Below are positions 2,131 to 31,971 of a stretch of DNA of 42,475 nt, one piece after another. A model generated the notes under the pieces. It was not told where the DNA came from. It made no database searches and was given only the letters and a program-made list of their open reading frames with translations. Each line of letters opens with the position of its first letter. The stretch's first letter is position 1. The position numbers and the translations under genes were made by a program. The stretch lies in contig CAMYNX010000006.1 in the NCBI GenBank assembly GCA_947259875.1, forward strand, positions 1 to 42,475, given 5' to 3'. This stretch comes from an uncultured Gammaproteobacteria bacterium. Lineage in GTDB: Bacteria; Pseudomonadota; Gammaproteobacteria; Arenicellales; JAANXG01.

Positions 2131-3537
2131 ATGATGACTGGAGTTCGATTACAAAGCCTGGAATTCGACGAGGTCTTGATACGCCGTTACGATCAGTCCG
2201 GCCCGCGTTACACATCGTACCCCACGGCGGTGCAGTTTCACGAGTCGTTTGGCGCCGATGCCTATCGTGAGCGGGCGCGCGAGACCAATGTCGGTATCAA
2301 TGCCCGGCCGTTATCGCTGTATTTTCACATTCCGTTTTGTGACACGGTTTGTTTCTATTGCGCCTGCAACAAGATCGTCACCAAGAATCGAAAACGGGCG
2401 ATTCCCTATCTGGTTCATCTGCATCACGAGATTGGTGCACAAAGCGAGTTATTCGATCATGATCGGGTTGTCGACCAGCTGCACTGGGGCGGGGGCACAC
2501 CGACCTTCCTGAGTCACGCGCAGATGATAGAGCTGATGCGAGTGACGGGTGATCATTTTCAGCTACGTACGGATGACCAGGGGGAGTATTCGATCGAAGT
2601 CGATCCCAGGGAGGCAGATGCCGGAACCATGGCGTTGTTGAGGCAAATCGGCTTTAACCGCCTGAGCCTGGGGGTGCAGGACTTTGAGCCGGATGTACAA
2701 AAGGCCGTAAATCGCATTCAGACCGAGGAACAAACCCTCGAGGTCATGAATGCGGCGCGGCGCGTGGGCTTCAAGTCCGTCAACGTCGATCTGATCTACG
2801 GTCTGCCTCTCCAGAGCCGTGAGACCTTTGCCCGTACCATCGACCGTATCATCGATGCCGATCCCGATCGACTATCTATATTCAATTACGCGCACTTACC
2901 GGACCGCTTCAAGACCCAGCGTCAAATCAACGCGGAGGAACTTCCGGCGGCGTCGGAGAAGTTGGCGATACTCCGGCTTACGATAGAGCGTTTGACGGAT
3001 GCCGGCTACGTTTATATCGGCATGGATCATTTCTCCAAGCCTGATGATGAACTAGCCATCGCTCAGCGTGAACGCAAGCTGTATCGTAATTTTCAAGGCT
3101 ACTCCACACACTCTGACTGTGACCTGATCGCTATGGGGGTGACCGGTATCGGAAGCGTCGGGAATACCTACAGCCAGAACGTTCGTACGGTGGATGAATA
3201 CTACGCGATTCTAGACGAAGATGAATTGCCGGTGTTTCGCGGTATTGAACTGAACAAGGACGATCTTTTGCGGCGCTATGTCATCGGCGAACTCATTTGT
3301 CATTTCTCTTTGGATACCCGCGACGTCGAGAATCGGTTTGACATCGAGTTTGCAGCTTATTTCGCGCCGGAGATCGAGACATTAAACAAAATGGCGGCCG
3401 ATGAATTGCTCACCATGGGAGACCATCACATCGAGGTCTCACCCAAGGGTCGTTTGCTGATCCGAAATATCTGCATGACGTTCGATCACTATCTCAATAA
3501 TGAGGGTGAGGCACACACCTTTTCCAAGGTGATTTAG
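2131..3537 (+). CDS. hemN: Oxygen-independent coproporphyrinogen III dehydrogenase HemN
   Basis: A 468-residue radical SAM enzyme that oxidatively decarboxylates coproporphyrinogen III to protoporphyrinogen IX without oxygen, in the cytoplasm. The characteristic N-terminal sequence PRYTSYPTA (25-33) is present. The cluster-binding cysteines C70, C74, C77 and the extra C79 have the spacing known for HemN (CX3CX2CXC). GGGTPTFL follows as the SAM-binding glycine motif, and the C-terminal HemN domain is complete. Length is close to the Escherichia coli protein (457). Two adjacent ATGs at 2131 and 2134 make the exact start uncertain by one residue. These genes usually respond to FNR or Anr, but no clear site was seen here. 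It stands alone, downstream of cytochrome genes that need haem. Confidence 0.96.
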   Translation: MMTGVRLQSLEFDEVLIRRYDQSGPRYTSYPTAVQFHESFGADAYRERARETNVGINARPLSLYFHIPFCDTVCFYCACNKIVTKNRKRAIPYLVHLHHEIGAQSELFDHDRVVDQLHWGGGTPTFLSHAQMIELMRVTGDHFQLRTDDQGEYSIEVDPREADAGTMALLRQIGFNRLSLGVQDFEPDVQKAVNRIQTEEQTLEVMNAARRVGFKSVNVDLIYGLPLQSRETFARTIDRIIDADPDRLSIFNYAHLPDRFKTQRQINAEELPAASEKLAILRLTIERLTDAGYVYIGMDHFSKPDDELAIAQRERKLYRNFQGYSTHSDCDLIAMGVTGIGSVGNTYSQNVRTVDEYYAILDEDELPVFRGIELNKDDLLRRYVIGELICHFSLDTRDVENRFDIEFAAYFAPEIETLNKMAADELLTMGDHHIEVSPKGRLLIRNICMTFDHYLNNEGEAHTFSKVI

Positions 3538-12243: not shown

Positions 12244-13752
12244 CTAATTATTTTCAAACGCCATCGAAAGGGCCACTCTGAATTTCTTGCTACTGAGCAG
12301 CAGAAACCCTATCACAGCTGCTAAAGATATAAGTGACACCGCGATCTGAGGTAGACTCCCAGCCTGGTTAATTGTCAATACCAGTTTACTTATACCAAAC
12401 AATAGCCCGCTGACCCCTATTGCCAACGCCAAGGGTTCAATATAAAGAGAAATTGATGTCGAGGTGAAGAAGGTTTTTGAAGCAATATAAAAACCAGTTA
12501 CCAGGTAGATGACGTTGATGACGAACCAGGCGGTTGCCGCGCCTGAAATACCGTAAATCTGGCACAGATGGTAAGTAAGAGGAATTGTCGTTAGCAGCAG
12601 ACCGATATTTAGGTAAAGGGCTGGTAATAATCGCCCGGTCGCGACATGCATGGCAAAAGGTATGTGCATTATACCGTTCATGACAGTTGCAAATGCGTAC
12701 ACCCTGACAACGTATGCAAGATCTGCTGCCAATGCAGCATCCCTGGTCCAGATCTCAAGCAGTTGATAAGAATAAATTCCGACAAAAAAGCCGATTGGGA
12801 TTAGAAGCAATATCATAAAGCGAACCGCAGCATAATAAGCATTGTGCAGAGCGTCCTTGTCCTCAATAAGACGATTAAATCTCGAAAAGTAGGCCAGGTA
12901 GATTGGACTGATAACGATCGTGATAATGGCGTTCAAACTCATTGCCACACCGTATTTTCCATATTCGTGCATACTGACCGTATAAATGGCAACCCACTTG
13001 TCTGTCATGGTGATAAATATCCCAATGATTGACAGGGCAACCATCAGGCCGCCAAATTTCCAATACTCGGTAATTATCTGCATGGAAAATACTGTCGTCC
13101 AGGCTCTCCATAACTGTCGCCAGACAACTAGTAAGATGACAGCCAAGTGGGCTGCGGTGACCATCAGCAGCCATTGAAAAAACAGATCAATTTGGTTGCC
13201 GTGCAAGAAAATCCAAAACAATACGCCGACACTTGCCAGTAAAGAAAACACGATATTAGTCATATTGACCGCAATGTGCTTTTTTAGCCCTTGACCCGCC
13301 GAAGCGTAGAATAAGATAAACCAGCGAATAACAACTAAAAGAAGTATCACCTGAAGATTTTTAGAAGCCGTCTCGCCGCTTTCCATTAACCACTGCTCAG
13401 TGAGCAATTCTGAAATTAGATACAGGGTGATAGCGCCACTGGTCACAAGCACAAGCCCCGCTGTCTGAAAGGTGGAAATTGTGGCAGCACATTTGCCTGG
13501 ATCGGATCCTGAAGATCGTATTTTCGCCAGGGCACGATTGACCGCAGGAATTAGCCCAAGATCGAATACAAGTATCGCTGTATTTAGAAAGAAATAAAGG
13601 CTTATCATGCCGTAGGAAGCGATGCCCAGCGCTTTAATATAAAACGGGATGCAAATGAATTGCGCAAACGCCGGGACCAGTGAGCCGAATAAGTTCCAGA
13701 GAATATTACCTTTAAGCAGAGCCTCCCGATTTAGTTTGCCATTTATCGCCAT
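12244..13752 (-). CDS. wzx: Polysaccharide flippase, Wzx/MATE-like (MOP superfamily)
   Basis: A 502-residue integral membrane protein with about 12-14 hydrophobic helices and short polar loops, beginning MAINGKLNREALLKGNILWNLFG. The pattern at the N-terminus (FCIPFYIKALGIASYGMISLYFFLNTA) is that of lipid-linked oligosaccharide flippases (Polysacc_synt/MOP superfamily). It would move the undecaprenyl-linked repeat unit across the inner membrane. It faces the forward glycosyltransferase operon and shares its strand with the methyltransferase upstream at 13890-14843. No Wzy polymerase or ligase was recognised in the window. Only the family can be asserted, not the cargo. Confidence 0.87.
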   Translation of the reverse strand: MAINGKLNREALLKGNILWNLFGSLVPAFAQFICIPFYIKALGIASYGMISLYFFLNTAILVFDLGLIPAVNRALAKIRSSGSDPGKCAATISTFQTAGLVLVTSGAITLYLISELLTEQWLMESGETASKNLQVILLLVVIRWFILFYASAGQGLKKHIAVNMTNIVFSLLASVGVLFWIFLHGNQIDLFFQWLLMVTAAHLAVILLVVWRQLWRAWTTVFSMQIITEYWKFGGLMVALSIIGIFITMTDKWVAIYTVSMHEYGKYGVAMSLNAIITIVISPIYLAYFSRFNRLIEDKDALHNAYYAAVRFMILLLIPIGFFVGIYSYQLLEIWTRDAALAADLAYVVRVYAFATVMNGIMHIPFAMHVATGRLLPALYLNIGLLLTTIPLTYHLCQIYGISGAATAWFVINVIYLVTGFYIASKTFFTSTSISLYIEPLALAIGVSGLLFGISKLVLTINQAGSLPQIAVSLISLAAVIGFLLLSSKKFRVALSMAFENN

Positions 13753-15934: not shown

Positions 15935-16235
15935 GGTTAGCACGTCCCGCTTGTCTCCCGACACAAGATAATCCACCTGACTTGCAACCGCCATCGCAAG
16001 CAGCGAGTTGTCGTGTGGGTCACGGGCTCGTCCAGTTCCGGTAATTCTGCAAGCGCCCGTGCCTGATATCGCAATCCATTACTCATGTTAGCCGCTTCAG
16101 AGGGCTTTGGAAATTTGCGTAACTTTGGATAACGACTGACGCGCTGGAATTCGTCCAACTGCCATTCGGAAGTAATCAACCCGAAGCGTTTTTCTCGCTA
16201 CGCCTGGTAGATTTGATGTGGATTGTCCAGCTGAC
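15935..16235 (-). pseudogene. PIN-domain toxin remnant (VapC-like, PIN_3)
   Basis: The minus strand reads PHQIYQA-stop-REKRF, then GLITSEWQLDEFQRVSRYPK, and after a frameshift near 16020, DPHDNSLLAMAVASQVDYLV and SGDKRDVLTLK. This matches the middle and end of PIN-domain toxin components, which are Mg-dependent RNases of type II toxin-antitoxin systems. The N-terminal first aspartate is missing. A TAG stands where a tryptophan codon is expected (AWRE). The remnant overlaps the last codons of the GT32-PqqD gene, in a different frame, so the two were fused by rearrangement. No cognate antitoxin is visible. Confidence 0.75.
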
Positions 16236-17183
16236 CTCTATGAACCCCATCTTGATGAACTCACAAATCACATCATAGACATCGTGCTGTACCGACACGG
16301 TATTAGTTGGATACTCACTGGATATTAGGTCAATAATCTCCTGAGTGGTTAATTCCGCATCGCAGAGCGCCCATGCCAGAGTCGCCGACCTATTCAACTT
16401 GTAACCGCGGAAGTTACTCTCACCCGAGAGGAAATAGCCTTCTTCATGGCTCTGTAAATCATAATTTTTATTTTGCCTTAATACGGCATTTAGGACCGTT
16501 GGCATATGCTCTACCACACGATCTCCACAATATGCCCGCTCATTGTACCCATACTTTTTTCTAACACACTGAATGACATCAGATTCATAATCCGTGCTTC
16601 CCCAAATCTGCACTGCGTAAGCCTTTGCCAACTGTGCTTCTGAGCATCTTTCACCTGTATAGTGATAAGGAAAAAAATAGTAGCTTGGCATAACATACAC
16701 GCTCTTATGCTTCATCATTACACGTGTAATTAATTCAGGCCCTGTGACAACATAATCGAAACCACTCATCTGAGCAGGCGAAAGTATGGATATCGAATCA
16801 ATCAGATCATCTATTATTGAATGAGCAGGACTACAACCCATCACACCATGTGCAATAAGGCCTGGGCGCGCCACCGGATTTTCATAGGCGATAAGAAAAT
16901 CCTTGTCTAGTAGCTCTCCATCAAGAGGGCGAAGGCAAATTGAATCTGCGTCAAGATAAATTCCTCCAAATCGCTGCAGCACTTCATAGCTAAGTATGTC
17001 TACCTTCCCTCCATATGTCGGTGATAACAAGACCTGTCTAAGACATTTCAGCGGAAAGTCGAAATCGTTCTCTGACCACAGCCTGTGCTCCCAGTCGGGA
17101 TGTGCCTTCCGCCAGGTGTCGATCCAATCAATGGGCGGTTCCAAAGGGCCGAGCCAAATCTGATGAATGATTTTCGGTATCAT
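16176..17183 (-). CDS. GT32-type glycosyltransferase with C-terminal PqqD-like (RRE) domain
   Basis: A 335-residue two-domain protein. Residues 1-about 230 are a DXD-type sugar transferase (Gly_transf_sug/GT32): MIPKIIHQIWLG at the start and GGKVDILSYEVLQRFGGIYL followed by D78-A-D80, the metal-binding pair. Residues 250-317 form a PqqD-like domain (YKLNRSATLAWALCD, TTQEIIDLI, ending CEFIKMGFIEV). PqqD-like domains (RiPP recognition elements) bind leader peptides and bring enzymes to them. It is the last gene of a minus-strand set of four. The final 18 residues (from SWTIHIK) read through a PIN-toxin remnant in another frame, so the original C-terminus has probably been replaced. Sugar and acceptor are unknown. 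Confidence 0.85.
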   Translation of the reverse strand: MIPKIIHQIWLGPLEPPIDWIDTWRKAHPDWEHRLWSENDFDFPLKCLRQVLLSPTYGGKVDILSYEVLQRFGGIYLDADSICLRPLDGELLDKDFLIAYENPVARPGLIAHGVMGCSPAHSIIDDLIDSISILSPAQMSGFDYVVTGPELITRVMMKHKSVYVMPSYYFFPYHYTGERCSEAQLAKAYAVQIWGSTDYESDVIQCVRKKYGYNERAYCGDRVVEHMPTVLNAVLRQNKNYDLQSHEEGYFLSGESNFRGYKLNRSATLAWALCDAELTTQEIIDLISSEYPTNTVSVQHDVYDVICEFIKMGFIEVSWTIHIKSTRRSEKNASG

Positions 17184-17189
17184 GACTCC

Positions 17190-18323
17190 TCACATTGAGG
17201 AGGTACTAGCTACGGGCGCTGATGTGTTAGACAACGCTTTGGACGAGTCAATATTTAACAATAACAGGCCATATTTTCTTAAGTCGATCAGGCAGCTAAG
17301 GACATCCTTACGGACCGCGGACTCTTCTATGTTGTACATGTAGCTGATGAGTTTAACTATTTCTGAGGCAGTGTTCCTGCCATCACATAAGTTTAAAATC
17401 ATTGCCGCCGACTCACTAAGTGTTATCCCACCACGTGACCCTGAAACAGACGCGCGGTAACAATCATTGGATGTCACTAGAGAACAACCATGCATGATCT
17501 TGGGTAATACACAATTGGCATTCACCTCAAGCATATCCGTGCTCATCATACTGCCTAACCTTCTGGTATATTCATCATCTTTGACCCAATTCATCAGCAG
17601 GCCCCGCTCAACAGATTTGACGCCTTCATGCAGAGAGATGTTCTTATAAAAGTAATCGTATTCGAATTTCTCCCAATCCTCATGCCACGTCCAGCATCCA
17701 TACTGCATATAAAGTTCGATATAATTGTCCCTTGTCTCCTGTTTGATGGAACATGTAACTAGTTCTGCATCACAAAATTCATAACTGCTCATTAGTCGGT
17801 GCGATTTCATGCTGACACAGCCTGGAAACCAGCAATCAAAACCAAGCAATGCCTGAGCCGCCTGTACCGCCCGGTTGACTTGCACATGCTCCTCATTGCC
17901 ATACTCACCCCACGGATTGTGGGTAAAGATAGTCTCGTAAGTAGCAAGTTCAGCCGTCAATCTGCTGACCAGCTTTGGGAAAACAGTCTCATAGCTTGCC
18001 GGGGATAAATCATGCTGCAGTATTTCAAGACCGTATTCGGATATGACAGGATTATTCCAATTGGCACTGTTTAGCGTGCCGGTTTCATAAAATCCAAGGT
18101 ATGTTACGTTGTCCCGCGGGTATTCTTTTGCAAATATCTTGCGAGCATCAGTGAGTTTCGGGTTTCCTGGCACGTCTGAGTAACAGAAAATAACATGATC
18201 GACTTCCTCCAGAACTGAGCTGAACCACAGCACCTCGTCATCTGGATGGGCTGCGACAATCACTGATTTCCCAGTCCACGTTGATGATTCACCCTTGATC
18301 CTACCGTCTTGTATATTGCTCAT
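17190..18323 (-). CDS. PIG-L/LmbE family deacetylase with C-terminal PqqD-like (RRE) domain
   Basis: A 377-residue protein. Residues 20-160 are a PIG-L/LmbE zinc N-deacetylase domain with AHPDDE (25-30) and THNPWGEYGNEEH (134-146), which supply the zinc ligands and catalytic base. This family removes acetyl groups from N-acetylglucosamine-like sugars. Residues 285-356 form a PqqD-like domain (GGITLSESAAMILNLCDG, ASEIVKLI, LIDLRKYGLLLL). The fusion suggests de-N-acetylation of a sugar carried by a peptide or protein that the PqqD domain holds. It lies 6 bases upstream of the GT32-PqqD gene and about 60 bases downstream of the PqqD-GT2-GT25 gene, all on the same strand. I do not know a characterised enzyme with this architecture. 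Confidence 0.88.
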   Translation of the reverse strand: MSNIQDGRIKGESSTWTGKSVIVAAHPDDEVLWFSSVLEEVDHVIFCYSDVPGNPKLTDARKIFAKEYPRDNVTYLGFYETGTLNSANWNNPVISEYGLEILQHDLSPASYETVFPKLVSRLTAELATYETIFTHNPWGEYGNEEHVQVNRAVQAAQALLGFDCWFPGCVSMKSHRLMSSYEFCDAELVTCSIKQETRDNYIELYMQYGCWTWHEDWEKFEYDYFYKNISLHEGVKSVERGLLMNWVKDDEYTRRLGSMMSTDMLEVNANCVLPKIMHGCSLVTSNDCYRASVSGSRGGITLSESAAMILNLCDGRNTASEIVKLISYMYNIEESAVRKDVLSCLIDLRKYGLLLLNIDSSKALSNTSAPVASTSSM

Positions 18324-18385
18324 TTTTGTACTCTACCGCGTATTGCCGCGTTATCCGCAAAGCTGCAATGTTTACGTGATGTGTC

Positions 18386-20530
18386 TCAGTAATAGTCATC
18401 ACGCATCCATTCATCCTCCTCCTTGAGAATAGTAGCTTGGGTAGCGACCACTTGTGACATAACAACGAGTCCCTGTTGCTTGGGTAGATACTTGTCAATC
18501 GCGGCATGTGTTTTGACCCACTCTTGCATGTCTTCTATTGCAGCAGGTAAGTCATTCAATAGCTTCTCATAGAAAGAGAAATGGTATGCCAGCGCATGTG
18601 CGCAGGTCATCCCTTGCGGACGATCTAGGAAGTTACATTGTGGTAGCTTGCTGTACTTTTTGCCCCACCTCATACCCCCTAGGTAAAACACATTCCATTT
18701 CTTATCTTTGAGTTCTGTTATGCTCTGGCGCAAGTAATCGAGGGTCTTTTCATGGAACATGACGTCATCTTCCAGCACCAGAACATTACGATATCCCTTA
18801 TCCCTGGCTTCCTCGACAATCTTTCGATGTGACAGGGCACAGCCGACGTGGTGTGACTCCGAGGTTTCAATAGCTTCGAAGCGCTTAATCCTGTGCAGTA
18901 TCCCCAGTCGTTGTAAGCGTCTTTGTAGGCTCAGCCAGCGCTCGTTTTCACCTGCTAGATTGATGCAGTAGATTGCTTCAAAAAAATCAAATGGGTTGTT
19001 CTGCTCATTAGAAATTTGTTCGAGTACTCGTCCAATCGTTTCTGCACTGACGTACTCCCTAAAATGTTCGCATACATCATCAGTATCGAGTCCAACTTCC
19101 TCAAATCCGATTAGGTAATTTCGGATACGATCTTCCCATAGATTGTCGTAAGGTGCTCCCCTAGGACGGGCAAAACGATGCATCCATCTCAGAAAGGGTA
19201 GGCAAAGCGTTCTGCTCTTGGCATTGCGGAATTTCTGGTGGATATACCCCTCCTCGCCACCGAAGCCGCGGAAACGGGGGTTATAGCCCTGCCAGGCAGT
19301 TTTTCTGCATGCCGCAAGGCCCATTCCCTGCATCGGGATATCAAAAGGCTCATTATCTGGGTCCAGTCCGCGCTCATCCAATCCCCAGATACCGAACATA
19401 CCCTGCTTCCACACCGGATTAAAATGTGTCGATATACTTCGCATGTCCTCATCTAACAATGGGCCCTGCAGTAGATCGGGTGATCCTGGATTGGCCTCGA
19501 AGTACTCGATCAGTTTGCGAATGGCGCCCGACTCGATAAATACATGCGAATCTATGCACATGACGTAGTCGGTGCACGCTTCACGGAAAACGAAATCCCT
19601 AACAGCTGTTCCACGAATCTCGTTATTGGCTACATATCGACATCCCTCTACCTTTTCTGCGAGGGTCTGCAGGTGATTGGCGCATACTCCGTTCGGATTA
19701 TTGTCGACAATTAGGATCTCCGTTTCATCTGTTACCTCTGGATGGAACAAACGGAGCGCCTGCACTGTGAAGTAGACGCCATCATAGTCATCGTAAGTTG
19801 CCATACCAATGGTGAGTTTCTTCCTCACCGTTTTGTCGGGTACATATACCTTGGTCGTTTCATGTGAACCGGGGGAGAACAATTCACCGATACGCTGTCG
19901 GTCTTGTGGTCCGATTTCGGGTCGGGGTGTTACCTGAAAGTTCGGCGGTAGGATGATCGCCGAGGAGGCATGTTTTAGCCGTCCAATGTCGGTTGTAAAT
20001 ACAAGATCAAAACCCGTTGCATCGCCGTTGCCTGTTTCATCGAGAAGAACAGATAAAACTGCTAGTGAATTTTTATATCCGTCTGTTTTGCAGCTGCTGA
20101 CAACGAGAATATCCGGTTGTTCGTCCGGTGTGACAATCAGAATATCGACCCATTCGGAAAAGAGATTCAGAAAGAAATTGTCATGGATATCGAACGAATC
20201 ATTAAAACCAGTGAAACCCATGCCTAATACAGGCCTAAGAAGCGTGGGTTTTAGTTCAACTAGTCCCCGGTGGAACAACTGTTTGATGGTATCTGAAAGC
20301 ACCATGTCCAGCTTGCCAGCAGTCTCATGGCTTGCCTGGTAAAGCTCTTCAACCATAAACTTCAACGACCTGGAGCCGTCACAGAGCTGATAGATGATTG
20401 CTGCAGTTGTATTGAGGGCGAGCCCACTCATGTTTCCCGGTGGATGGGCAATCAACTGGTCATCGGACCAATGCATCAGCCACTTGCCCTTACGGGTCGG
20501 TTTTAACGAGGAAGGCAGGAGGATTTTCAT
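18386..20530 (-). CDS. PqqD-like domain fused to GT2 and GT25 glycosyltransferase domains
   Basis: A 714-residue multidomain protein. Residues 15-95: PqqD-like (GLALNTTAAIIYQLCDG, hydrophobic C-terminal helix ending RGLVEL). Residues 100-235: an uncharacterised region. Residues 238-480: GT2 (LTIGMATYDDYDGVYF, ILIVDNNPNG, and C325-IDSH as the metal motif; GFGGEEGYIHQKF later). Residues 515-700: GT25/LPS transferase type (EAIYCINLAGENERW, GCALSHRKIVEEA, VLVLEDDVMF). It may therefore add two different sugars in sequence to a substrate held by the PqqD domain. The gene follows the putative substrate gene after a 97-base gap holding a hairpin with a T-run. No signal peptide or membrane helix is seen, so it is cytoplasmic. 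Confidence 0.88.
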   Translation of the reverse strand: MKILLPSSLKPTRKGKWLMHWSDDQLIAHPPGNMSGLALNTTAAIIYQLCDGSRSLKFMVEELYQASHETAGKLDMVLSDTIKQLFHRGLVELKPTLLRPVLGMGFTGFNDSFDIHDNFFLNLFSEWVDILIVTPDEQPDILVVSSCKTDGYKNSLAVLSVLLDETGNGDATGFDLVFTTDIGRLKHASSAIILPPNFQVTPRPEIGPQDRQRIGELFSPGSHETTKVYVPDKTVRKKLTIGMATYDDYDGVYFTVQALRLFHPEVTDETEILIVDNNPNGVCANHLQTLAEKVEGCRYVANNEIRGTAVRDFVFREACTDYVMCIDSHVFIESGAIRKLIEYFEANPGSPDLLQGPLLDEDMRSISTHFNPVWKQGMFGIWGLDERGLDPDNEPFDIPMQGMGLAACRKTAWQGYNPRFRGFGGEEGYIHQKFRNAKSRTLCLPFLRWMHRFARPRGAPYDNLWEDRIRNYLIGFEEVGLDTDDVCEHFREYVSAETIGRVLEQISNEQNNPFDFFEAIYCINLAGENERWLSLQRRLQRLGILHRIKRFEAIETSESHHVGCALSHRKIVEEARDKGYRNVLVLEDDVMFHEKTLDYLRQSITELKDKKWNVFYLGGMRWGKKYSKLPQCNFLDRPQGMTCAHALAYHFSFYEKLLNDLPAAIEDMQEWVKTHAAIDKYLPKQQGLVVMSQVVATQATILKEEDEWMRDDYY

Positions 20531-20578
20531 GTTCCAATTAATTTGGAAATCACGATTTACTTACAGTCCATAACAAAA

Positions 20579-20598
20579 GGCTACCATGGTTGGTAGCC
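20579..20598 (-). terminator. Hairpin plus T-run between substrate gene and PqqD-GT2-GT25 gene
   Basis: GGCTACCA and TGGTAGCC form an 8-bp stem with a 4-base loop. On the minus strand it is followed by TTTTGTTATGG. It lies between the end of the 198-residue protein gene (20628) and the start of the downstream glycosyltransferase gene (20530). The short T-run suggests partial termination, giving more substrate than enzyme mRNA. Confidence 0.6.
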
Positions 20599-20627
20599 CG
20601 CTATATTGTCACACAGATGCTTTCAAA

Positions 20628-21224
20628 TCATCGTGGTGTGGTTGGCGGCGGTGGATCTATTGGTGGATCTAGTGCACAAGTGCCGGTAATAGGAGTTGCC
20701 TCGTAACTCGTCGGTGTGCCACCGTCTATTGTTACCGCGCCATTGATCTTATTTGCTGTTTCATCGTAGGCACCTGTTACACTTACATCGTGGTTACCAC
20801 CACTAGCCTGGTTAGGTGACATTGTCATAAAGAAGTTGAGAGCTGCACTACCCGTATACAACCACCAGTCGGATTCGATTATTACTTGTACATTTGCCAC
20901 ACCATTAACCACGTTTATACAAACCGCGAAACTTAAACCACCAGCGTGCGCCTGCGGGATAAGATACTCCAGTAGATCTGTAACACCGAAAACATTGATA
21001 GGTGTCGAATATGAACCGTTGAGAGCCGAAGGCTGGGCATGTACAGGGAGTATGACCGAGTCGATGACAGGCTTGGTCCATTCTTTCTGTAACGTGGTCG
21101 CACCGACGAACATGCCACCGCCGGCTAAGATCTGTTTCAGCCTCTTGCGCCGGTCCTCGTTACTCTCTGACTCGGTGTTTTTACCAGCTCTTTCCGAATC
21201 ATCAGGCTTCTTGCTGTCTGACAT
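20628..21224 (-). CDS. Exported-looking protein with leader-like N-terminus; candidate substrate of the PqqD system
   Basis: A 198-residue protein of no family I can name with certainty. A charged N-terminus (1-30, with RRKR at 25-28) is followed by a Gly-rich, weakly hydrophobic segment (AGGGMFVGATTL, 34-45), then WTKPVIDSVILP (49-60) and VHAQ (61-64). I recall similar Trp-x-Lys-Pro-Val ... Leu-Pro stretches in other uncharacterised bacterial proteins with Tat-like starts. The rest is rich in Ser, Thr, Asn and Gly with a Pro/Thr tail (PPIDPPPPTTPR) and only two cysteines (102, 183). A good ribosome site (GGGAG) precedes the ATG. It is first in the minus-strand operon with three PqqD-fused enzymes, so it is the natural substrate candidate. 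The two-twin-arginine-like N-terminus could also mean Tat export. Confidence 0.7.
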   Translation of the reverse strand: MSDSKKPDDSERAGKNTESESNEDRRKRLKQILAGGGMFVGATTLQKEWTKPVIDSVILPVHAQPSALNGSYSTPINVFGVTDLLEYLIPQAHAGGLSFAVCINVVNGVANVQVIIESDWWLYTGSAALNFFMTMSPNQASGGNHDVSVTGAYDETANKINGAVTIDGGTPTSYEATPITGTCALDPPIDPPPPTTPR

Positions 21225-21259
21225 GCTACTCCCGTAAATCGTGAATCGTTATCTGCAAA

Positions 21260-21295
21260 CTATTTAATACTATGTTAGCTCCTCTGATATGTAAA
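21260..21295 (-). promoter_or_regulatory. Sigma70-like promoter of the substrate gene operon
   Basis: On the minus strand, TTTACA (21295-21290) and TAGTAT (21272-21267) are separated by exactly 17 bases. They stand about 40 bases before the ATG at 21224, which also has a GGGAG ribosome site. The gene on the other side (21349, plus strand) is divergent, so the 124-base interval probably controls both. No operator palindrome was recognised. Confidence 0.5.
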
Positions 21296-21348
21296 TCGCC
21301 AGATTCATGACTTCAATGTGCTCCCCTTGATTCAGTGGGCGAGATACA

Positions 21349-22479
21349 ATGAGCGGCTATTTAGACTCTCGTGGAAGCAGGCAGGCAATGAAACCGGTCG
21401 CTCTTTACCTCCCTGTCGGACCCGACGTCACATTGCTTGAGGCAAACCTGGATTACTACTCAAATCTCGGTGTATCCCGCATCCTGCTAAGCGTCCATCT
21501 GAGAGATGAATGGTCTGACGGATTTCTCGAAAGGATATCTAAAACGATTAAAGACCACCCCGCTGAGATTGCTCAGATTTACCAGGGGGTGTCTATTGAC
21601 AATAGGTCACGATATATCAATGTTACGCGCGAGCACTGCAATAAAGATGACTGGGTGATCATCGCTGATCTGGATGAATTTCATGAATTTTCTATGCCTC
21701 TCCCAGATGTTGTTTCGTTATGTGAATCGCAAAACTATGACTATGTCACAGGGCAATTTTTGGATCGCGTCGGGTTTGATGGGAAACTGATTGAATACAC
21801 CGGAAACATCTGGGATTGCTTTCCAATTGGAATGCGTCTTACGCGAAAGATTCTAGATGATGATGCCCCAAAAGTTGTACTGGCGCGGGCAGAAATTGGC
21901 ATTAAAGAAGGACATCACTACGCACTTGATGGTATGCGTTACCCAGGTAATGAATGTGCCGCGATTGTTCACCATTTCAAGTGGGATGCTAGTGTTCTTG
22001 TACGTGCCAACCACATGTATAAAGTTCTAGCGGATGCTGGTAATGACTGGTGCATCGAATACTTAAAGCTGTTGGCGTACTTCGAGAAAAATAACGGCCA
22101 TATTTGCATCGATGACACAACGCTAGATGCCTACTGGCCAGGCTACATGCGAACAGAATGTCATGCGCAAGTGGGTTTGCAGGATATTTATAAGGATCCA
22201 AATTTTGTCAAACCGGTATTAGGTGCCATAGAGTCAGTATCATATCCGGACAAGCACCAAAGATTGATTCGCCTTATCGACGGTACAGTCAGATACATCA
22301 ACTCTTCGGCTGCAATCGTGATGGAATTATGCAATGGAGAACGCACTGTCAGAGAAATCTCCCAATTACTGAAATCCAGTTACCCCGAGAAGTGGCACCG
22401 TATTGAAAAGGAAATACAAGAAGCTCTGCGTAAGTTACAGGAGGATAAACTCCTCGACATAAATCCAGATACTTCTTAG
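21349..22479 (+). CDS. GT92/GT2-like glycosyltransferase with C-terminal PqqD-like (RRE) domain
   Basis: A 376-residue protein. Residues 14-about 260 are a GT-A type transferase (Glyco_tranf_2_4/GT92-like): VALYLPVGPDVTLLEANLDY, WVIIADLDEFHEF with the metal-binding D107-L-D109, HHFKWDASVLVRANHMYK near the end. Residues 303-371 form a PqqD-like domain (IDGTVRYINSSAAIVMELCN, VREISQLL, a helix ending LQEDKLLDI). It is divergent from the substrate-operon and completes a set of four PqqD-fused carbohydrate enzymes. An ATG at 21388 (MKPVALY) is an alternative start, preceded by GGCAGG, and would better match the domain boundary. Sugar specificity is unknown. Confidence 0.85.
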   Translation: MSGYLDSRGSRQAMKPVALYLPVGPDVTLLEANLDYYSNLGVSRILLSVHLRDEWSDGFLERISKTIKDHPAEIAQIYQGVSIDNRSRYINVTREHCNKDDWVIIADLDEFHEFSMPLPDVVSLCESQNYDYVTGQFLDRVGFDGKLIEYTGNIWDCFPIGMRLTRKILDDDAPKVVLARAEIGIKEGHHYALDGMRYPGNECAAIVHHFKWDASVLVRANHMYKVLADAGNDWCIEYLKLLAYFEKNNGHICIDDTTLDAYWPGYMRTECHAQVGLQDIYKDPNFVKPVLGAIESVSYPDKHQRLIRLIDGTVRYINSSAAIVMELCNGERTVREISQLLKSSYPEKWHRIEKEIQEALRKLQEDKLLDINPDTS

Positions 22480-29261: not shown

Positions 29262-30902
<1,641 letters not shown>

Positions 30903-30906
30903 CGGA

Positions 30907-31971
30907 TTATCCGATTGTCTTGCGGGGATTGAATGCGTCACGCACCCCCTCACCGATAAAAATCAACAGGCTCAGCATCACCGCAATGACGAAAAACCCG
31001 GTTAGTCCCAACCACGGTGCCTGCAGGTTGGCCTTGCCCTGTGCCAATACCTCGCCTAATGAGGCCGAGCCGGGCGGCAGGCCGATGCCGAGAAAATCCA
31101 GCGAGGTCAGAACCGTTACCGAGCCAGCCAAGGTGAAAGGCATAAAGGTCAAGGTCGCGACCATCGCGTTCGGCAGCACATGGCGGAACATAATCACGGC
31201 GTTGCTCACACCGAGTGCCCGGGCCGCGCGCACGTAATCGAAATTACGTGCGCGCAGGAATTCGGCGCGCACCACGCCGACGAATCCCATCCAGCTGAAC
31301 AGCAGCAGTAATCCTAAAAGCCACCAAAAGTTCGGCTCGACAATGCTGGCCAGGATGATCAACAGGTACAAGGTCGGCAGCCCGGACCACACCTCGATGA
31401 AACGCTGAAACAACAAATCCAGCCAGCCGCCGAAGTAGCCTTGTACCGCGCCAGCCGCGACCCCGATCACGGCGCTGATAACGGTCAGGCTGAAGCCGAA
31501 CAACACCGAGATGCGAAAGCCATAGATCAGCCGCGCGACGACATCGCGCGCCTGATCGTCGGTGCCGAGCCAGTGTTCGGCGTCCGGCGGCGACGGGGCG
31601 GGCGTCGCCAGGTCCCAGGCCACGGTGCGGTGGTCGTAACGGATGAGTGGCCACAGCATCCAGCCCTGTTGCTTGATGCGTTCGGCCACGAACGGGTCGC
31701 GGTAGTCGGCTTCGGTTTCGAACTCGCCGCCGAAGGTGGTCTCGGGATAGGCGTGCAACACCGGGCTGAAGAACTCGCCGTGGTAATAGACGAGAATGGG
31801 CTTTTCATTGGCGACGATCTCGGCCAACAAGGTGATCAGGAACAGTGCCAGAAATAGCCACAGCGACCAGTAGCCGCGCTTATTGCCCTTGAAGCTGTCG
31901 ATACGGCGGCGGGTGAGCGGCGTCACGCTCAGTCCGAGAAAGGTAGGTTGACGCAAATCCTGTTGACCCAC
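30907..31971 (-). CDS. yejE: Peptide ABC transporter permease YejE
   Basis: A 354-residue inner-membrane permease (BPD_transp_1, DppC type) with an N-terminal helix (GYWSLWLFLALFLITLLAEIVAN), a periplasmic loop and the permease core; ARALGVSNAVIMFRHVLPNAM is the EAA loop that contacts the ATPase. The GTG start is next to the yejB stop (one base apart). It pairs with YejB to form the channel. Length fits the family. Confidence 0.94.
   Translation of the reverse strand: MGQQDLRQPTFLGLSVTPLTRRRIDSFKGNKRGYWSLWLFLALFLITLLAEIVANEKPILVYYHGEFFSPVLHAYPETTFGGEFETEADYRDPFVAERIKQQGWMLWPLIRYDHRTVAWDLATPAPSPPDAEHWLGTDDQARDVVARLIYGFRISVLFGFSLTVISAVIGVAAGAVQGYFGGWLDLLFQRFIEVWSGLPTLYLLIILASIVEPNFWWLLGLLLLFSWMGFVGVVRAEFLRARNFDYVRAARALGVSNAVIMFRHVLPNAMVATLTFMPFTLAGSVTVLTSLDFLGIGLPPGSASLGEVLAQGKANLQAPWLGLTGFFVIAVMLSLLIFIGEGVRDAFNPRKTIG

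Follow-up and report, generated by a model that had tools for sequence, protein, structure and literature searches.

A candidate RRE-guided protein O-glycosylation cassette with a shared Tat-like leader in an uncultured gammaproteobacterium

Introduction

Animal and protist polypeptide N-acetylgalactosamine (GalNAc) transferases (ppGalNAc-Ts; glycosyltransferase (GT) family GT27) start mucin glycosylation. The serine-rich-repeat adhesins are Ser/Thr-rich exported proteins that receive their sugars one after another in the cytoplasm, by GtfA/GtfB, and leave through the accessory Sec components SecA2/Y2. A third kind of system combines PqqD, an HprK-related kinase A and a nucleotidyltransferase; we take these cassettes to be the HPr-rel-A type of NCBIfam. 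Finally, in pathways for ribosomally synthesized and post-translationally modified peptides (RiPPs) that depend on a RiPP recognition element (RRE), such as those of PqqD, lasso B1 proteins and sactipeptides, a domain of the PqqD fold, free or fused to an enzyme, goes with an adjoining conserved leader that carries a W/Y/LxxP-type motif. A broad class of PqqD-like RREs binds W/Y/LxxP/L/I motifs (PMC12710340). Fusions of PqqD/RRE domains to glycosyltransferases were listed earlier by RRE-Finder (PMC7470986), and a 2025 update lists such fusions with PF00535 (PMC12710340); the fusions as such are therefore not new. Here we analyse a stretch of 42,475 nucleotides (the window) from an uncultured gammaproteobacterium of the Arenicellales (contig CAMYNX010000006.1 of assembly GCA_947259875.1), in which four carbohydrate enzymes with PqqD-like modules surround the gene of a 198-residue protein.

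The cassette shares with the RRE-dependent RiPP pathways a leader-bearing precursor encoded beside RRE-bearing enzymes, an arrangement found in the window; of the 80 GT2 loci described below, the window's own being one, 22 have both leader and PqqD. It differs from them in that the leader is also Tat-like (twin-arginine translocation), the putative substrates would be entire proteins that likely carry an export signal, and glycosyltransferases and a PIG-L-type deacetylase serve as the enzymes. The adhesin system would resemble it in cytoplasmic, sequential sugar addition; here an RRE, a leader and probably Tat would take the place of GtfA/GtfB and SecA2/Y2. With the HPr-rel-A cassettes it has in common that genes of the same leader family adjoin them, but in the window each of the four enzymes has a PqqD fusion of its own. 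The main-text parts compared of PMC7470986 and PMC12710340 describe no Tat-like leader, Thr-rich tract or ppGalNAc-T likeness for the fusions they list.

Results

A sequence-only reading of the window had proposed that four enzymes of different classes each carry a similar PqqD-like module, C-terminal in three and N-terminal in one. The genes were located at the positions that it had given and the Pfam matches reproduced this arrangement. Three modules scored above the gathering score of PF05402: residues 261-315 of the protein encoded at 16176-17183 on the minus strand (E 1.9e-6), residues 299-354 of that at 17190-18323 (minus, E 1.9e-10) and residues 312-369 of that at 21349-22479 (plus, E 5.4e-7). 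The N-terminal module, residues 37-90 of the protein at 18386-20530 (minus), scored below it with E 0.033. An independent PqqD profile, built from 21 free-standing PqqD proteins that all came from other genomes, matched all four proteins, this one included, with independent E-values (i-E) of 6e-16, 3.6e-14, 6.7e-12 and 9.2e-11, as compared to a best value of 0.82 among 1000 shuffled window proteins. The module of the PIG-L protein matched in addition the solved PqqD 5sxy (E 3.5e-4). On these profile matches, three of the four modules scoring over the curated cut-off of PF05402, we assign all four as PqqD/RRE domains. A DNA-binding role was not favoured because the modules match Pfam PqqD and 5sxy; the single helix-turn-helix match (PF01022, E 0.04) was below cut-off. 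In the structural model of the 714-residue protein the N-terminal module had a predicted confidence (pLDDT) mostly below 50, so its structure was left unused. Pyrroloquinoline quinone synthesis was rejected, in agreement with the sequence-only reading: no PqqE (TIGR02109) scored over cut-off in this genome, whose completeness is about 91% (no search aimed at PqqA, B or C was made).

The 198-residue gene is followed by three minus-strand enzyme genes, separated by gaps of 97, 62 and 6 bases. No Pfam or NCBIfam family matched its product over cut-off. When used as a query, this protein gave matches at E 0.01 in 37 of 119 related genomes, with up to 20 per genome, and those among the matches listed mostly span little beyond its residues 14-75. 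Its N-terminal segment had been proposed to be a leader, and at the sequence level a leader of the form RR...W-x-K-P...P-x-H-A is indeed common to many otherwise unlike proteins. The consensus consists of RR-x-x-L-K, a Gly-rich hydrophobic stretch and LP-x-x-W-x-K-P-V-V-x-S-V-x-L-P-A-H-A-Q-T-S. Among 80 distinct leader proteins RR is present in 79, W..P in 78 and P.HA in 79; since the seeds of the leader profile were chosen by the pattern W..P..P.HA, the counts for W, P and HA are partly forced, RR lying outside the pattern. The W-x-K-P of the leader fits the W/Y/LxxP/L/I recognition class (PMC12710340). Models of Tat signals were compared with 40 of the 107 leader proteins collected (39 from the GT2 loci described below and that of the window): TIGR01409 matched 13 and PF10518 6 of them at E 0.1 or better, and two exceed the NCBIfam cut-off of TIGR01409. 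TatC is encoded in the genome. Leader proteins vary in size; some have just 63-117 residues and many, the window's included, extend 110-200 residues beyond the leader. The homologue encoded at L067:9242-9883 is 43% identical to the 198-residue protein, adjoins another PqqD-GT2-GT25 gene and has an extra Thr-rich insert, TTAAPTTTGAPTTK, in its mature part.

Several further observations were made on this family. A second motif ending in AHA, of the kind ILDFFVxxAHA, occurs in 21 of 68 leader proteins, against 0.32 expected from shuffles, some 12-54 residues past the end of the leader match; it resembles a decayed repeat of the first motif and may mark an additional site of processing. Some leader proteins with no GT2 nearby, in L025 (also L172), L182 and L196, have near their end a part of the NLKENF...GP type that probably resembles the intramolecular chaperone of phage tailspikes. 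In L068 (2-907) a nucleotidyltransferase-like part continues in one frame directly into a leader and then a Thr-rich tail; this could be a genuine fusion or else an error of the assembly.

The GT2 core of the 714-residue protein was modelled with a mean pLDDT of 93.7. Among 466 Foldseek matches in the PDB with E ≤0.001, the best 50 were all ppGalNAc-T chains, the first of them with E 2.8e-13 and TMq 0.73, at 13-17% identity among the matches listed. A profile of the core gave an alignment of 186 positions with GalNAc-T10 (E 0.005), in which the DSH motifs and the C-terminal His residues of the two coincide. D327 and H329 of this D-x-H motif are invariant in 81/81 homologues and H451 is kept in 79/80. 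In a study of GT-A enzymes, DxH replaces DxD and is confined to GT27 and GT60, two families that have polypeptide Ser/Thr O-glycosylation in common (PMC7185993), and mouse GALNT1 has DxH plus a His (PMC4202792). With the whole 714-residue protein, each of the top eight hits was either human COLGALT1 or an entry carrying its profile match, followed by ppGalNAc-Ts with heparosan synthase in between. No ricin-type lectin domain was matched by Pfam up to E 1 in this protein, which has a GT25 domain instead. Judged from model and alignment, the GT2 domain is thus GT27-like by fold, DxH and C-terminal His and lacks the lectin domain. Thr/Pro-rich acceptor-like tracts near its relatives are a further likeness to the animal and protist enzymes; low identity, the putative RRE targeting and a presumably cytoplasmic location set it apart.

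Scanning a collection of genomes from 84,980 species with the GT2 alignment gave 83 places with a relative, of which 80 loci were kept, the window's own locus (L066, 100% identity) being one of them. They are labelled Gamma- and Alphaproteobacteria, Desulfobulbaceae, Streptomyces, Acidobacteriota, Bryobacterales, Bacteroidota and others. At a profile threshold of E 1e-4, a leader was found in 28 loci, 26 of them with no more than 1 kb between leader and GT2; PqqD was found in 41, leader and PqqD together in 22 and either one in 47 (looser earlier scans had given 23 leaders, by pattern, and 42 PqqD). In 38 loci the GT2 and a GT25-like domain are parts of one protein, and in 35 the GT2 is joined to an HprK-like domain, the HprK-type models behind the latter label scoring below their cut-offs, and a relative of an NTP_transf_5 protein is present in 21. 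In two Bacteroidota-type loci the GT2 is directly preceded by an RR protein that escaped the leader profile at E 1e-4 (L096:9347-9886 and L099:9663-9917); the first of these proteins carries TTWSKP and a Thr-rich tract.

Many of the leader proteins beside the GT2 end in stretches of the kind TTTTTTTT or APTTTAAPTTT. With Thr-rich defined as 35% Thr in 20 residues, a cut-off set after the tails had been seen, 30 of the 41 leader proteins encoded in the GT2 loci were Thr-rich, compared to 25 of 1003 other open reading frames (ORFs) of at least 100 residues there; this baseline consists of tiled open frames, some of them presumably not genes, from which the leaders, the five PqqD fusions described below and L096:9347 were removed by hand. 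A second set was anchored on the leaders and comprised 77 stretches with 80 leader proteins, about half of the listed leader places, with mostly 6 kb fetched on each side and less at contig ends. Here 8 of the 11 leader proteins accompanied by the GT2 were Thr-rich, versus 7 of the 69 without it in the fetched stretch (Fisher p 2.8e-5). One leader protein beside a GT2-HprK-like fusion (L137:8877-9242) has Ser-rich SSSSYFF repeats and no Thr-rich tract.

Co-location of PqqD and leader was assessed within the order, from 150 listed leader and 150 listed PqqD places in slightly different genome sets. In leader-bearing genomes, 18 of 129 listed PqqD places lie within 6 kb of a listed leader, against 2.1 expected, and 12 of 41 do so when the PqqD lies in an ORF of more than 200 residues, against 0.92 expected; expectations assume random placement, and the window's own places account for 3 of the 18 and 3 of the 12.

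In five loci the GT2 gene adjoins a gene whose single product unites a PqqD-like module with both an RR segment and a Thr-rich tract: L075 (Fraserbacteria), L076 and L077 (from one Microthrix bin), L083 (Streptomyces) and L123 (Bryobacterales, with a weak PqqD match of E 0.012). RR is present in all five and W-x-K-P in none. This absence is expected if W-x-K-P is the PqqD-binding site, because the motif would serve to recruit an RRE that is not attached. Other fusions join the enzymes themselves. One chain of L058 holds GT32-type, PqqD, GT2 and GT25 domains, and the homologue of the GT92-like protein at L049:11211-13322 holds GT92-like, PqqD and GT32-type domains; three of the four separate enzymes of the window are thus joined in relatives, the PIG-L protein not. 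PqqD is also fused in relatives to a sulfotransferase protein and an ankyrin-PhyH-GT7 protein (L061) and to a Glycos_transf_1 protein (L062).

Coordinates are given in Table 1. The enzyme classes of the sequence-only reading held for the GT32-type protein and for both domains of the GT2-GT25 protein, which score over their Pfam cut-offs, and the other two rest on matches below cut-off. The PIG-L model PF02585 gave 24.3 bits for a cut-off of 28.2, and the matching part contains AHPDDE, which we take to be the PIG-L motif. For the protein at 21349-22479 the sole family match was PF13704 (25.3 bits, cut-off 27.5), and GT92 is a provisional label taken over from the sequence-only reading.

Table 1. 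Features of the cassette, in positions of the window
Feature	Position	Strand	Basis or description
Candidate substrate, 198 residues	20628..21224	-	leader + region without Pfam/NCBIfam match over cut-off + PPPPTTPR tail
Leader segment, residues 25-66	21027..21152	-	RRKRLK, Gly-rich hydrophobic stretch, WTKPVIDSVILPVHAQPS; common to most matches listed
WTKP, proposed RRE recognition motif	21069..21080	-	fits W/Y/LxxP/L/I class (PMC12710340)
Second motif LLEYLIPQAHA, residues 84-94	20943..20975	-	similar motif in other leader proteins
PqqD-GT2-GT25 protein, 714 residues	18386..20530	-	ORF + Pfam
N-terminal PqqD/RRE module, residues 37-91, of 714-residue protein	20258..20422	-	Pfam E 0.033 (below cut-off); independent profile i-E 9.2e-11, residues 11-94
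GT2 core, ppGalNAc-T-like, residues 229-505	19016..19846	-	PF00535 E 2.6e-9
DSH = DxH motif, D327-S-H329 of 714-residue protein	19544..19552	-	pairs with the same motif in GalNAc-T10
His451, probable C-terminal metal-binding His of GT2	19178..19180	-	aligned with a His of GalNAc-T10
GT25 domain, residues 506-714	18389..19015	-	PF01755 E 9.9e-10; procollagen galactosyltransferase 1 by profile, E 1.7e-4
PIG-L-type deacetylase + C-terminal PqqD, 377 residues	17190..18323	-	PIG-L model below its cut-off
PqqD module of PIG-L protein	17262..17432	-	PF05402 44.8 bits
GT32-type glycosyltransferase + C-terminal PqqD, 335 residues	16176..17183	-	PF04488 over cut-off
PqqD module of GT32 protein	16239..16403	-	PF05402 30.8 bits
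GT92/GT2-like protein + C-terminal PqqD, 376 residues	21349..22479	+	divergent from substrate gene
PqqD module of GT92-like protein	22282..22455	+	PF05402 33.3 bits

The window also has a flippase-like gene (12244-13752) and one that is GDP-mannose dehydratase-like, together with methyltransferases and three GT2 genes. At 29262-30953, 7 kb from the cassette, an oligopeptide-type ABC ATPase protein is encoded, and a HemN-type radical SAM gene lies at 2131-3537, 12 kb from it; this gene excepted, no cyclase or radical SAM match was found among the neighbours scanned. Beyond the cassette, the segment 25138-27330 has one ORF with a Y2_Tnp transposase match (PF04986) and another with an IS240-type DDE domain (PF13610).

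Neither an HprK-related kinase A nor a nucleotidyltransferase was found among the ten window proteins scanned around the cassette. In the same genome, contigs C102 and C186 (L046/L003) encode PqqD, an HprK-related kinase and an NTP_transf_5 protein, with a divergent leader gene, and a kinase-nucleotidyltransferase-PqqD cassette seems to be split between these two contigs; TIGR04352 scores below cut-off wherever it matched. On contig C32 (L001, 1029-2680) a lasso B2-type protein, which scores over cut-off for NF033537, is encoded together with a PqqD and an HprK-like protein. A Ser of the lasso peptide pseudomycoidin receives first a phosphate and then a hexose through the action of a kinase and an annotated nucleotidyltransferase (PMC9266682).

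Discussion

Taken together, the modules, the common leader, the co-location, the Thr-rich stretches beside the GT2, the ppGalNAc-T-like fold and the DxH motif, all obtained by calculation, lead us to propose that the cassette carries out leader-guided (RRE-guided) O-glycosylation of a probably Tat-exported protein, to which we assign a probability of about 0.6. The protein encoded at 20628-21224 would be made with an N-terminal Tat-like signal that has a W-x-K-P motif in its end part. The PqqD/RRE module of each enzyme would grip this motif and so tether the enzyme to its substrate. The ppGalNAc-T-like GT2 domain would then initiate a glycan on Thr or Ser, the GT25, GT32 and GT92-like domains would lengthen it and the PIG-L domain would take off an N-acetyl group; a multi-sugar glycan trimmed by a de-N-acetylase is plausible, its sugars, its acceptor residues and the order of the steps being inferred. 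Glycosylation would take place in the cytoplasm, before the decorated protein left, probably via Tat, and the leader would be cleaved near an A-x-A-like site. Such a mechanism would combine the leader guidance of RiPP pathways with glycosylation of the mucin type.

The idea of leader-guided glycosylation put forward by the sequence-only reading gains from the modules, the conserved leader, the greater than random proximity of PqqD and leader and the likeness of the GT2 to Ser/Thr transferases; several observations count against a simple form of it and against the mechanism proposed here. By profile at E 1e-4, 52 of the 80 GT2 loci have no leader, some of them on short contigs and five with the PqqD-fused Thr-rich protein instead. 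In the other direction, for 69 of the 80 leader proteins of the leader-anchored set the fetched stretch contains no such GT2, 134 of 150 listed leaders lie beyond 6 kb of any listed PqqD, and 29 of 41 listed PqqD-bearing ORFs of more than 200 residues lie beyond 6 kb of a listed leader. The two sets also overlap in contigs (L069/L052, L130/L049, L122/L166, L125/L051, L145/L059, L071/L169), and related sequences are not independent. The window's 198-residue protein matches neither TIGR01409 nor PF10518 and stays under the Thr-rich cut-off (0.30 vs 0.35), with only a short PPPPTTPR tail, as one of three among the 11 GT2-associated leader proteins that do not pass. One catalytic-domain relative of the PIG-L protein was listed in the search of 119 genomes (G017:C154), and it is without PqqD; the remaining matches listed cover the PqqD part only. 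In the profile comparison of the GT2 core, a beta-1,3-GlcNAc-transferase outscores GalNAc-T10 (4.5e-5), over positions 3-118 in the N-terminal part, and the likeness in fold does not fix sugar or acceptor because GT-A folds have a common structure. Fusions without a substrate gene, which the sequence-only reading had named as an outcome that would refute it, therefore do occur in part, and the enzymes may also act in trans; leaders far from PqqD could either be modified in trans or have another use as well.

Alternatively, the leader may be a Tat export signal alone, with the GT2 recognising the Thr-rich tract by itself and PqqD binding something else or holding the enzymes in a complex. ppGalNAc-Ts do find their acceptors with no help from an RRE, a Tat model matches 13 of 40 leader proteins at E 0.1 or better, and the many leader proteins without a nearby GT2 would be accounted for. 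However, W-x-K-P is not required in an ordinary Tat signal. It is missing in all five proteins in which PqqD and the Thr-rich tract are fused, and it fits a known RRE recognition class (PMC12710340), and we regard a pure export signal as unlikely. We give still less credit to an ordinary surface-polysaccharide or O-antigen gene set, in which PqqD would be an enzyme scaffold and the 198-residue gene an unrelated neighbour. The flippase-like gene, the three GT2 genes, the methyltransferases and the GDP-mannose dehydratase-like gene of the window would suit such a set, but in 26 of 80 loci, from several phyla, the leader gene is no further than 1 kb from the GT2, the GT2 resembles polypeptide transferases, and the same domains occur in single chains near leader genes in L058 and L049. 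Least probable of all appears a RiPP whose core is excised and released as a small glycopeptide, for instance an antibacterial one: RRE domains typically occur in RiPP clusters (PMC12710340), some of the leader proteins are very short, and a kinase and annotated nucleotidyltransferase, possibly akin to those here, also tailor a lasso peptide (PMC9266682), but many leader proteins, the window's too, continue far past the leader, and no peptidase match was found in the 20 window proteins scanned, though the oligopeptide-type ABC ATPase is encoded 7 kb away.

The sequence-only reading knew of no described system with this set of enzymes, which has to be qualified by the RRE-glycosyltransferase fusions already in print (PMC7470986, PMC12710340); the link of leader family, Tat-like tag, Thr-rich tracts and ppGalNAc-T likeness was not found in the parts of these papers compared, nor among the literature matches listed. 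Likewise, no paper joining a PqqD/RRE domain, a Tat-like leader and a protein glycosyltransferase was found among the matches listed, in a search that covered few subscription papers and no preprints.

Returning to RRE-guided O-glycosylation, we see about even odds that several bacterial phyla own a mucin-type O-glycosylation in which an RRE steers a ppGalNAc-T-like enzyme to Thr-rich proteins and the export signal is the tag, the window being a four-RRE assembly line of this kind for a complex glycan. If our proposal is true, leader-guided modification, known from small peptide natural products, would also decorate whole exported proteins, and bacteria would have their own equivalent of the mucin glycosylation of animals, one whose targeting tag is portable. 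We know of no substrate for the PqqD-HprK-nucleotidyltransferase cassettes; the proposal would suggest a function for these, as well as for the many leader proteins, of which a single genome can have up to 20 matches. The W-x-K-P tag could then be used to steer glycosyltransferases onto chosen proteins.

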